Below, piece after piece: positions 53,080-56,429 of a stretch of 64,000 nucleotides of DNA. The position numbers and the translations under genes are program-made. A model generated the notes under the pieces. The model made no database searches, had not been told where the DNA came from, and was given only the letters and a program-made list of their open reading frames with translations. Numbering within the stretch: position 1 is the stretch's first letter; the number at the start of each line of letters is the position of its first letter. This stretch comes from a virus, in the IMG/VR virus record IMGVR_UViG_3300039189_000053, positions 1 to 64,000 of that record; one strand, given 5' to 3'.

Positions 53080-55080
53080 ATGCGCCACATAGTCTATCAA
53101 CAGTCGGACACCTACCCGATTGCACTGCTTATCAAAAACACTGCATTCAGTGCCGACGAGATCCGCAAAGCCTATGTGGAGCCGTTGGCCAAACGCGGTG
53201 TTGATGAAGAAGACCTGCTGGTTATGGACCTGTATTACAACGCGTCCAACAAAGCACCTACCAGCGTCGTTAAAGAGTATCTGGCCAATCTCATGCCAGA
53301 GCTCGCTGCCGTTAATACCAAGCTCATCTACTGTGCTGATGCTGCCTACTTTCGTGAACTCACGAAAAACAAAGGCAAAGCTGAAGCTCACTTGGGCTAT
53401 GTACTGCCCTGCGCCATGGAAGGCTACGAACACATGGAAGTGATTCTGGGTGTCAATCACAAATCACTGATGTACAACCCCAACAACGAGCCCAAGCTGC
53501 GTATGTCCCTGGACACACTCGGCAACAAAGCCGTGGGTAACTACGAAGCCCCGGGCAAAAACATCATCCATTCAGAAAATTATCCAACCGGTGCCTGGGC
53601 TATTCAGGATGCCTTAAACGATCTGCACCAGTACGACACGCTGGCCTGTGACATTGAGACTTTCTCACTGGATTTCGACAAAGCTGGTGTTGGCACCGTT
53701 ACTTTCTGCTGGTCCCAGCACGAAGGCATTGCCTTTCCTGTGGACTACGTGGAGATGGATGAGCCAGTAGACAATCTTTACGGCAAGCAGATCGACAACC
53801 AGCAAGTGAAAGTTATGCTGCGTGAGTTCTTTGAAACGTACACCGGCACCATCATCTGGCAAAACTGTCCGTTCGATACCAAGGTGTTTATCTACAACCT
53901 GTGGATGGACGACCTGCTGGATACCAAAGGGTTGCTCACTGGCTTGGACATTCTGCACAGGCGGATCCACGACACCAAGATCATTGCCTATCTGTCTCTG
54001 AACAGTTGCGCTGGTAACAAGCTCAGCCTAAAAGACCTGGCCCACGAGTTTGCTGGCAACTACGCACAGGAAGACATTAAAGACATTCGCAAGATCCCAC
54101 TGGCTCAGTTGCTCAAGTACAACCTGATCGACGGTCTGTGTACCTGGTTTGTGTTCAACAAATACTACCCAATCATGGTGGCTGAACAGCAGGAACCTCT
54201 GTATCACGATCTGATGATGCCAAGCCAAAAAGTCATTACCCAGATCGAGCTCACCGGTATGCCCATGAGTCCCACTCGTGTGCAAAAAGCCCGGGCAAAG
54301 CTGGAACAGATCCTGGAAGAGCACAAAAATGTGTTGTTTTCCAAACGCATCATTCGAAAACTCGAAAACCAATTGACTCACGAAGCTTGGCATAAGGATT
54401 ACACCGACCGTCGTGACAAAGCCAAAAACCCAGACAAGATCTTTCCTAAAGACAAAGCCAAGTTCCCGCAGACTCAGTTCAACCCGAACTCGGGTCCGCA
54501 AAATCAAAAGCTTTTGTACGATCTGATGGACTTGCCAGTGCTTGATCTCACCGATTCCAAGCAGCCGGCAACGGGTGGCGACACGTTGGACAAACTGGTT
54601 TTCCACACGGACGATCAGGACTACAAAGACATTCTCAATGCGCTTGTAGGCTACGGAAAAGCTGCCAAGATTCTTTCGTCATTCATTCCTGCGTTCGAAA
54701 AAGCCATTGATAAAGAAGATGGCGTGGTGTATCTGCATGGCTCATTCAATCTGGGCGGTACCAAGTCCGGTCGACTGAGCAGCTCCGATCCCAACCTGCA
54801 GAACATTCCAGCCGGTTCGGTCTATGGCAAGCTGATCAAAGAATGCTTTGTACCACCAGATGGTTTCCTGTTTGCAGGTGCTGACTTCAACTCGCTGGAA
54901 GATTACATCAGTGCCCTGACCACCAAAGACCCAAACAAGCTGAAGGTCTACCAAGGACATGAGGTGTTCGAAGTAACTATAAATAACTCCACACATCATA
55001 TCCGAGAGGATGCTACGGTTGTTTATCAAGGTAAACACTATACAGGGAAAGAGTTTTATGAAACCTATAGCGTATTATGA
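53080..55080 (+). CDS. DNA polymerase, N-terminal piece (exonuclease plus palm motif A)
   Basis: This 666-residue protein is a family A polymerase of the N4 gp39 type, interrupted. The 3'-5' exonuclease has LACDIETFSLDF (Asp191, Glu193), WQNCPFDTKVF and YNLIDGLCTWF. Motif A is FAGADFNSLED with Asp602. Polymerase similarity stops at KLKVY (Tyr624); the last 42 residues (QGHEVFEVTINNSTHHI ... ETYSVL) lead into the HNH gene. The O-helix and motif C are on the C-terminal piece (55560-56429). If no splicing occurs, two polypeptides must assemble. AGGAGCC precedes the ATG. Confidence 0.9.
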   Translation: MRHIVYQQSDTYPIALLIKNTAFSADEIRKAYVEPLAKRGVDEEDLLVMDLYYNASNKAPTSVVKEYLANLMPELAAVNTKLIYCADAAYFRELTKNKGKAEAHLGYVLPCAMEGYEHMEVILGVNHKSLMYNPNNEPKLRMSLDTLGNKAVGNYEAPGKNIIHSENYPTGAWAIQDALNDLHQYDTLACDIETFSLDFDKAGVGTVTFCWSQHEGIAFPVDYVEMDEPVDNLYGKQIDNQQVKVMLREFFETYTGTIIWQNCPFDTKVFIYNLWMDDLLDTKGLLTGLDILHRRIHDTKIIAYLSLNSCAGNKLSLKDLAHEFAGNYAQEDIKDIRKIPLAQLLKYNLIDGLCTWFVFNKYYPIMVAEQQEPLYHDLMMPSQKVITQIELTGMPMSPTRVQKARAKLEQILEEHKNVLFSKRIIRKLENQLTHEAWHKDYTDRRDKAKNPDKIFPKDKAKFPQTQFNPNSGPQNQKLLYDLMDLPVLDLTDSKQPATGGDTLDKLVFHTDDQDYKDILNALVGYGKAAKILSSFIPAFEKAIDKEDGVVYLHGSFNLGGTKSGRLSSSDPNLQNIPAGSVYGKLIKECFVPPDGFLFAGADFNSLEDYISALTTKDPNKLKVYQGHEVFEVTINNSTHHIREDATVVYQGKHYTGKEFYETYSVL

Positions 55081-55597
55081 AAACCGTTACTTGATTGGGG
55101 AAGATGGAAGTATTTTAAATCTGGCCAACAATACCAGACTAACTCCCTCAGAAAATCCAAATGGGTATTTAAAAGTCTCGCTGGCTAATGGTGACGGAAC
55201 GTCTACACAACAAAGTATTCATCGCCTTGTCGCTTTGCACTACGTACCTAACCCTTACGGTTATACTCAAGTTAACCATAAAAACGGTAATAAAAAACAC
55301 AACCAAGACACAAATCTTGAATGGTGTGACCCGTCATACAACATAAACCACGCCTTTAAAACAGGGGTACGTAAGGGGTATATGTCTGCCGATGATAAAG
55401 AACATCACTTACACCAAGTTCTAAATGGTGCTCAAGTTAATGACATCGCCGTACAAATCAGTAGACGGCCTGAAACACTACATAAGATGTTAAGGGAGAC
55501 ATCAAAAAGATTAGGTATACACGATCAATGGCAGGCCGTAATGAAGGAGAACCGTAAAAATGCAGCCATTCGGAACCTTACAAAAGTCAACTCTTGA
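55058..55597 (+). CDS. HNH homing endonuclease inside the DNA polymerase gene
   Basis: There are 179 residues. The N-terminal 40 residues resemble the NUMOD4-type DNA-binding motif (YYENRYLIGEDGSILNLANN), followed by the HNH core IHRLVALHYVPNPYGYTQVN and HKNGNKKHNQDTNLEWC, and a helix-turn-helix-like C-terminus. It is more AT-rich than the polymerase around it. It starts 23 bases before the end of the N-terminal piece and ends 38 bases inside the C-terminal piece, in a third frame, with AGGGAAAGAG before the ATG. It would cut uninterrupted polymerase alleles of related phages. Confidence 0.9.
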   Translation: MKPIAYYENRYLIGEDGSILNLANNTRLTPSENPNGYLKVSLANGDGTSTQQSIHRLVALHYVPNPYGYTQVNHKNGNKKHNQDTNLEWCDPSYNINHAFKTGVRKGYMSADDKEHHLHQVLNGAQVNDIAVQISRRPETLHKMLRETSKRLGIHDQWQAVMKENRKNAAIRNLTKVNS

Positions 55598-56429
55598 AAT
55601 ACCTGACGGAGCTGATTTCAGTATTAAACACGTAGGAAGTACCGGAGGTTACGATGGTCACAGTCTGCGTGCGTTCACCTATTGGCCTGAAAAATTCCCC
55701 TGGGACGAGCTCACACCTGAGCGAAGCCATGAGGTGAAGAAGGATAAAGGCGATTTGGGCAAAGCCCGTAGCGATTCTAAAGGACCGACGTTTGCACTGA
55801 CCTATCAGGGCACCTGGCACACGTTGGTTAAAAACCTGGGCTTCGCTAAAGCAGACGCACTGCGGATTGAAGAAAACTACCACGAGCTCTACAAAGTCTC
55901 AGACGAGTGGGTGCGCCAACAGTTAGAAGAAGCTTCTCGTGTTGGTCACGTTAGCATTGCGTTTGGTCTGCGGTTGAGAACACCGCTATTGGCCAAAACG
56001 TACCGCAACAAGTCCAGCACACCGTATGAAGCTGAAGCCGAGGGTCGTACCGCTGGTAACGCACTGGGCCAGTCCTATGGCTTGCTAACCAACCGCTCTA
56101 TAAACGAGTTCATGCAGAAAGTCTGGCAATCACGGTTCCGCTACGACATTAAACCAGTGGCCATGATCCACGACGCCAATTACCTGCTCATCAAAGACGA
56201 CATTGAAGTAGTCGAGTGGGTAAACCGGGAGCTGATCAAATCCATGGAATGGCAAGATCTGCCGGAGCTGCATCACCCCACGGTGAAGCTGGGCGCTGCA
56301 TTGGACATTTTCTATCCATCTTGGGCCGAGGAATGTACTCTGCCCAACTACGCTGACCAGGAGGAAATCCGTGCTACTTGCGCGGACTTTCAAGCTGAGC
56401 TGGCCGAGAAGCAAAAGGACGCTGCATGA
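55560..56429 (+). CDS. DNA polymerase, C-terminal piece (O-helix and motif C)
   Basis: There are 289 residues. After a 28-residue leader it reads GGYDGHSLRAFTYWPEKF, the direct continuation of the KLKVY end of the N-terminal piece. It carries ARSDSKGPTFALTYQG (O-helix: Arg70, Lys74, Tyr82) and VAMIHDANYLL (motif C: His204-Asp205). AAGGAG lies 10 bases before ATG 55560, so it can be translated on its own. It has no exonuclease or motif A, so must work with the other piece. The leader (LQKSTLEIPDGADFSIKH) probably continues the tail of the N-terminal piece as one small inserted domain. Confidence 0.9.
   Translation: MQPFGTLQKSTLEIPDGADFSIKHVGSTGGYDGHSLRAFTYWPEKFPWDELTPERSHEVKKDKGDLGKARSDSKGPTFALTYQGTWHTLVKNLGFAKADALRIEENYHELYKVSDEWVRQQLEEASRVGHVSIAFGLRLRTPLLAKTYRNKSSTPYEAEAEGRTAGNALGQSYGLLTNRSINEFMQKVWQSRFRYDIKPVAMIHDANYLLIKDDIEVVEWVNRELIKSMEWQDLPELHHPTVKLGAALDIFYPSWAEECTLPNYADQEEIRATCADFQAELAEKQKDAA

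Follow-up and report, generated by a model that had tools for sequence, protein, structure and literature searches.

Essential genes in pieces are already known. In phage T4, the HNH gene mobA divides the large subunit of topoisomerase II into gp39 and gp60, and split inteins in fractured genes were reportedly described by Dassa in 2009. In the part of PMC2988022 that cites Friedrich 2007, the two polypeptides of the ribonucleotide reductase of Aeromonas phage Aeh1 are stated to form an active enzyme. We describe here a split family A DNA polymerase gene found in an IMG/VR virus record of 66,011 bases (IMGVR_UViG_3300039189_000053), of which the first 64,000 bases were analysed and are hereafter called the window. 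The window contains markers of an N4-like phage (Schitoviridae), namely a 3380-aa virion RNA polymerase (phrog_2206), an N4-type primase and a Dda-like helicase. As stated in a preliminary description made from the DNA letters, the polymerase is encoded by two open reading frames (ORFs) that flank an intact HNH gene, the three lying in three frames (Table 1) and overlapping at both ends, by 23 bp (N-piece/HNH) and 38 bp (HNH/C-piece); the same polymerase arrangement has been deposited for public phages. We propose that the insertion is probably a mobile, splice-free cassette which supplies its own split docking domain, and that the polymerase works as two polypeptides.

The Pfam DNA_pol_A match is divided between the two pieces, with motif A in the N-piece and motif B (the O-helix) as well as motif C (IHDA) in the C-piece, in agreement with the earlier placement of the split between motif A and the O-helix. 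The HNH protein matches phrog_59 (E=5e-34), its NUMOD4 and HNH_3 matches in Pfam being weak. A Shine-Dalgarno-like sequence precedes each of the three starts (AGGAG before 53080, GGGAAAGAG before 55058 and AAGGAG before 55560), which bears out the earlier statement that each piece has its own ribosome binding site. All three ORFs are intact and conserved, and the coding sequence (CDS) of an essential gene is interrupted by a complete homing endonuclease gene with its own start.

The edges of the insertion are exact. In the alignment to uninterrupted polymerases, a check that the preliminary description had suggested, relatives align with the N-piece only up to KVY (Tyr codon 54949-54951) and with the C-piece only from its Thr28 (codon 55641) onwards. 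This places the insertion at 54952-55640 (689 bp), immediately ahead of the D-G-H that is conserved at the base of the fingers and, in our own alignment, at a point that we take to be between the equivalents of Taq Phe632 and Gln633. Two pairs of empty and filled genes, N4/VEc25 and G7C/SP5M, each differ by one exact 695-nt insertion, with flanks mostly 84-100% identical. The 512-bp deletion previously put forward as restoring the polymerase frame has to be abandoned, since both of the stretches that it joins sit inside the 689-bp insert; the AACCT repeats, taken as insertion edges, are also located inside it according to the alignments and to both pairs. Apart from this placement of the edges, the earlier reading as a gene in pieces with a free-standing HNH gene, without intron or intein, holds on the negative Rfam search, the missing intein residues and the layout of relatives (see below). 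The roughly 60 extra residues then counted are indeed too few for an intein, but they belong to the insert and not to the polymerase frame, as a 42-aa tail of the N-piece and a 27-aa head of the C-piece.

Codon differences in the tail occur mostly at third positions (0.24/0.22/0.50 by position), and the tail is therefore under selection as a protein. The same tail was found at a second site of the polymerase (site 2, the site of the window being site 1), after MPDI in the loop preceding the O-helix. Tails of the two sites are homologous (hhalign probability 98%, E=3e-13), and a hidden Markov model (HMM) built from site-1 tails only finds site-2 tails (best match in locus L025, E=4e-9, among 54,760 ORFs). 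Site 2 is represented by 34 distinct metagenomic loci, nine of which have kept the HNH gene while 25 have lost it and are still split, with the pieces lying 10 to 2221 nt apart and, in some loci, other genes between them. Eighteen site-2 rows form one all-split clade; the two-piece polymerase has therefore been inherited over a long time, and the split outlasts the nuclease. A long ribonucleotide reductase-like ORF stands between the polymerase pieces, in the place of the nuclease, in L027 and L102-L106. The site-2 C-pieces start with a conserved head, MLKIxxxIxxISxV..., and L018 and L023 have short heads at site 1 that resemble it. One polymerase is even in three pieces (L024:4554-7932; same contig L099), its middle ORF being composed of a site-1 head, 20-odd polymerase residues and a site-2 tail. 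In L123 a single stop codon parts the polymerase pieces within one frame. With this stop read as Ser, AlphaFold returns a confident polymerase (mean predicted local distance difference test score, pLDDT, 89.8) in which the tail (four strands and a helix) and the head (one strand) are both confident and are joined by a disordered linker; docking of the head is a prediction. No fused polymerase with tail and head in frame was seen among 90 tail ORFs, fusions being found only in topoisomerase; tail-only scans of viral contigs, made by a pattern method that limits sensitivity, gave only polymerase or topoisomerase loci, and a sequence search of the tails against the PDB found nothing.

The tail also occurs in the split topoisomerase of T4. 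When the isolated AlphaFold model of tail and head was compared with the PDB, the T4 topoisomerase II chain 8yo3_C came first of 350,542 chains (probability 0.98), with a root-mean-square deviation of 2.0 over 38 columns but E=0.1. The C-terminal residues of gp39, ...EWFTFELNGDTIIVNENDEVQINGKWITVGELRKNL, display the tail pattern at exactly the expected place, unsplit relatives, RB69 among them, have no tail of this type, and gp60 opens with a similar head. Related gp39 tails stand upstream of endonuclease genes in NP4, KARL-1, 50AhydR13PP and PM2. Aligned by hhalign, the topoisomerase and polymerase tail profiles score 34.4 (93.8%), the maximum of 150 column-shuffled controls being 17.1. The link to T4 is one of remote homology, based on three concordant lines (profile-profile score, fold and context). 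Tail and head are likely two halves of one small domain, because they are fused in one reading frame in the topoisomerases of Aswh_1 (L278) and L292 and because gp39 passes directly into gp60 in the solved T4 chain 8yo3_C. Two other topoisomerase loci were recorded: in L287:2608-3564 a GIY-YIG-like nuclease, not HNH, lies between pieces with the same tail and a frame gap follows downstream, and in Campylobacter phage CP220 (L282:1801-1932) the topoisomerase ends in the tail and is followed by unrelated genes, the C-piece not having been located.

The cassette is mobile. It was found at the same site in about 17 public phages of several genera, including Pollock, Pylas, VEc25, PMBT57, AlfredRasser, SP5M and PD205, and in further metagenomic contigs. 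Within the cassette and the sequence right next to it, Pollock and VEc25 share 85-98% DNA identity, against mostly 45-70% in the rest of the polymerase gene; with identity confined in this way, tail, HNH gene and head therefore moved together, and the pattern is that of a recent homing event with co-conversion. In a tree built from the N-parts of polymerases, site-1 splits are dispersed, 12 rows requiring 11 changes, which is no improvement on shuffled labels, and the nearest relative of the window polymerase is intact. L014 has a site-1 split without HNH gene. In phage AL25 (L005:4224-4454) an additional break with a second tail copy was seen near the end of the N-piece, perhaps as an assembly artefact.

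At the T4 site and at polymerase site 2, loci that have kept a nuclease also show a frame gap close by, of the type bypassed in gene 60. Gene 60 of T4 carries the well-known 50-nt bypass shortly past the head, a gap that has been tied to protection against the nuclease (PMC5009743). In nuclease-bearing topoisomerase relatives the frame breaks after DxDxDG; the nuclease-free L288, Aswh_1 and L292 have no break. At site 2, all nine loci with an HNH gene either break at PTFALT^YQGT or, in the case of L025, lack that stretch, compared with one of 23 without HNH gene (Fisher p=4e-7, a value that overstates independence as the loci are related). The polymerase breaks are of three types: 40-48-nt hairpins flanked by Thr codons, 5-nt inserts containing a stop, or 1 nt. 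The 40-48-nt insertions form strong hairpins at O-helix codons (L037:5960-6012, L106:2634-2687, L109:7873-7930 and L117:4724-4780), and their flanking Thr codons match or are synonymous (ACT/ACT, ACC/ACC, ACC/ACT and ACT/ACA); they are candidate translational bypass elements like that of T4 gene 60. The 5-nt insertions (TA[AG]C[GTA], in L042, L107, L112 and L133) come right after the same Thr codon and create a stop and a frame change, and 1-nt frame breaks lie nearby in L111 and L254; both are candidate sites of short hops or of +1 frameshifting, and in L107 and L112 no internal start that could be used was seen. Acinetobacter phage nACB1 (L008:4346-5194) has an HNH-bearing group I intron at almost the same codons as these short gaps, its polymerase being deposited as separate CDSs. 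The C-piece of the window has no such gap.

Several other explanations have to be weighed. Removal of the insert from the RNA as a group I (or II) intron would agree with the Pylas record, which annotates the homologous insert as a joined CDS, with the genuine group I introns with HNH genes found elsewhere in these polymerases (e.g. nACB1) and with the 672-bp intron annotated at a different place in PhAPEC5, but it is extremely improbable. Indeed, the covariance-model search that the preliminary description had proposed gave no Rfam intron match in 54900-55700, neither at the gathering threshold nor at E<=10, and no group I intron catalytic core (RF00028) was found in the insert, whereas the same kind of search recovers the nACB1 group I intron as positive control (41 bits, E=8e-9, though under the Rfam gathering score); the intron was rejected on this basis. 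The insert has just some 150 nt that are not part of the HNH frame, and these show protein-level conservation. Furthermore, unrelated genes separate the two polymerase pieces in L027, L030, L102, L104 and others, while in L097, L118 and L123 the pieces are consecutive, 10-51 nt apart, with no nuclease; together with the nuclease-free site-1 split of L014 and the three-piece polymerase of L024/L099, these layouts are the strongest argument against splicing. Joining of the polypeptides by a split intein of the fractured-gene type, or by an unknown protein trans-splicing element, is very unlikely. The layout is the same as that of split inteins with an endonuclease between the halves, such as MIJ3 PolB (PMC6892783), the residue at which the polymerase resumes is usually Thr or Ser, and there is a faint similarity to Hint domains (NpuDnaE at rank 14, probability 0.13). 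Across the tails and heads compared, however, neither a nucleophile at the start nor an Asn at the end is conserved: the tail begins with Q, M, I, T, A or S, the head ends in S, N, D, Q, I or K, and neither the terminal His-Asn or equivalent nor blocks A/B/F/G were found. No intein Pfam match was obtained. Tail and head amount to some 70 residues in all and Hint domains need about 130. The split intein was rejected on residue conservation, size and Pfam; moreover, the best fold match of the tail family is T4 gp39, which to our knowledge is not spliced.

It is also unlikely, to a lesser degree, that the two polypeptides assemble through the polymerase's own interfaces and that tail and head are tolerated leftovers without docking role. 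Split polymerases without tails do exist, such as the family A enzyme of OM43 phage MEP401 (PMC10580990), and the T4-like gp43A/B are reported to co-purify and to be active (PMC2988022). Against this stand the constraint on tails at the protein level, their recurrence at two polymerase sites and in topoisomerase, their persistence after nuclease loss across the 18-row clade and their fusion in two topoisomerases. Nothing specific favours an inactivated polymerase, an assembly error or a ribosome jump over the entire insert, apart from the window being one metagenomic virus record, and the probability of this is practically negligible: because about 17 isolated phages that form plaques, and numerous independent contigs, have the same architecture, with all three ORFs intact, the arrangement is neither chance nor assembly error. 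A docking cassette is itself open to challenge: a plain HMM search does not find the T4 gp39 tail link, the head is disordered in the isolated 77-residue AlphaFold model (the tail being retained), and kept tails could merely reflect that there is no easy return to the intact gene. On this last point, the selection pattern of the tail argues for use and not for mere retention.

Table 1. Coordinates, in the window, of the split polymerase gene and of the parts of its insertion.
Feature	Position	Strand	Evidence
N-piece (666 aa) of the family A DNA polymerase, containing the exonuclease, the palm and motif A	53080..55080	+	Pfam DNA_pol_A
Polymerase part of N-piece, 624 aa	53080-54951	+	
Whole insertion, 689 bp, KVY/TDGYDGH junction	54952..55640	+	Comparison with uninterrupted polymerases
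N-piece tail, 42 aa and stop, QGHEVFEVTINNSTHHIREDATVVYQGKHYTGKEFYETYSVL	54952..55080	+	Absent in intact polymerases; homologous tails elsewhere; protein-level selection
Shine-Dalgarno-like GGGAAAGAG upstream of HNH start	55045..55053	+	
HNH homing endonuclease gene, 179 aa counted from ATG 55058	55058..55597	+	NUMOD4, HNH_3 weak in Pfam; phrog_59 E=5e-34
Shine-Dalgarno AAGGAG upstream of C-piece start	55544..55549	+	
C-piece head, 27 aa, MQPFGTLQKSTLEIPDGADFSIKHVGS	55560..55640	+	Absent in intact polymerases; conserved heads in relatives
C-piece (289 aa), containing motif B (O-helix of the fingers) and motif C (IHDA)	55560..56429	+	
Polymerase part of C-piece, 262 aa	55641-56426	+	

We therefore return to the docking cassette. 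In it, a homing endonuclease would be flanked by two further coding parts, a tail completing the N-piece and a head opening the C-piece. The HNH protein would cut uninterrupted polymerase genes, the cassette then being copied into the replicative polymerase gene at the point where the palm (motif A) gives way to the fingers, and the mRNA would be translated as three overlapping ORFs, each from its own ribosome binding site. Two polymerase polypeptides would accumulate and reassemble without splicing, tail and head binding each other and folding into a small beta-rich domain that docks the two pieces and thereby restores activity; isolates carrying the split polymerase gene do form plaques. Insertion into an essential gene would be tolerated because the docking domain travels with the nuclease. 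More broadly, we incline slightly towards a phage family of splice-free intervening elements, each made of a homing nuclease (of two HNH kinds and once GIY-YIG-like) and a split docking domain, often with a bypass gap that may protect the nuclease cut site, and leaving the host enzyme as two or even three polypeptides; T4 gene 39/60 and these polymerases would be members. If true, a parasite would have a third way, besides those of introns and inteins, of surviving inside an essential gene: introns and inteins protect the host gene by splicing, whereas the cassette seems to do so through a clip that keeps the two parts of the enzyme together. The proposed cassette also offers one explanation for the split topoisomerase of T4 and for polymerases that are split at two sites and are still split after nuclease loss, and the tail/head pairs could serve as natural split-protein tools. 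Literature searches of incomplete coverage, outside of which most subscription papers lie, returned no report of the shared tail/head domain, of the link to T4 gp39/gp60, of the second polymerase site, of the three-piece enzyme or of the polymerase gaps.

Among described systems, the T4-like gp43A/gp43B (PMC2988022) and MEP401 (PMC10580990) resemble the window in having a replicative phage polymerase made as two polypeptides. However, gp43 belongs to family B, unlike the family A enzyme of the window, and in MEP401 the split precedes motif A, the pieces enclose a small unrelated ORF and no tails are visible; MEP401 was examined as a possible tail carrier and no tail was found. Split inteins in fractured genes (MIJ3 PolB, PMC6892783) share an endonuclease between pieces with extra end residues, but the window has no Hint blocks or splicing residues, an insert part of about half the size and no sign of ligation. 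In Aeh1, nrdA is split by the free-standing HNH gene mobE, as in the window but in another gene, one of nucleotide metabolism; the precedent, invoked in the preliminary description, is apt, and T4 gp39/mobA/gp60 is closer. The public phages named above and others have the same gene, site and tail-HNH-head cassette as the window, with HNH protein and tails 57-63% identical to it; they are deposited as separate CDSs or as a join, and no account of their tails was found. T4 differs from the window in its host gene and in its HNH subfamily, mobA being annotated as defective, and it has a frame gap a short way past the head, like nuclease-bearing site-2 polymerase loci but unlike the C-piece of the window. 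As in the window, nevertheless, an HNH gene stands between two pieces of an essential enzyme, with a homologous tail on gp39 and a similar head on gp60.

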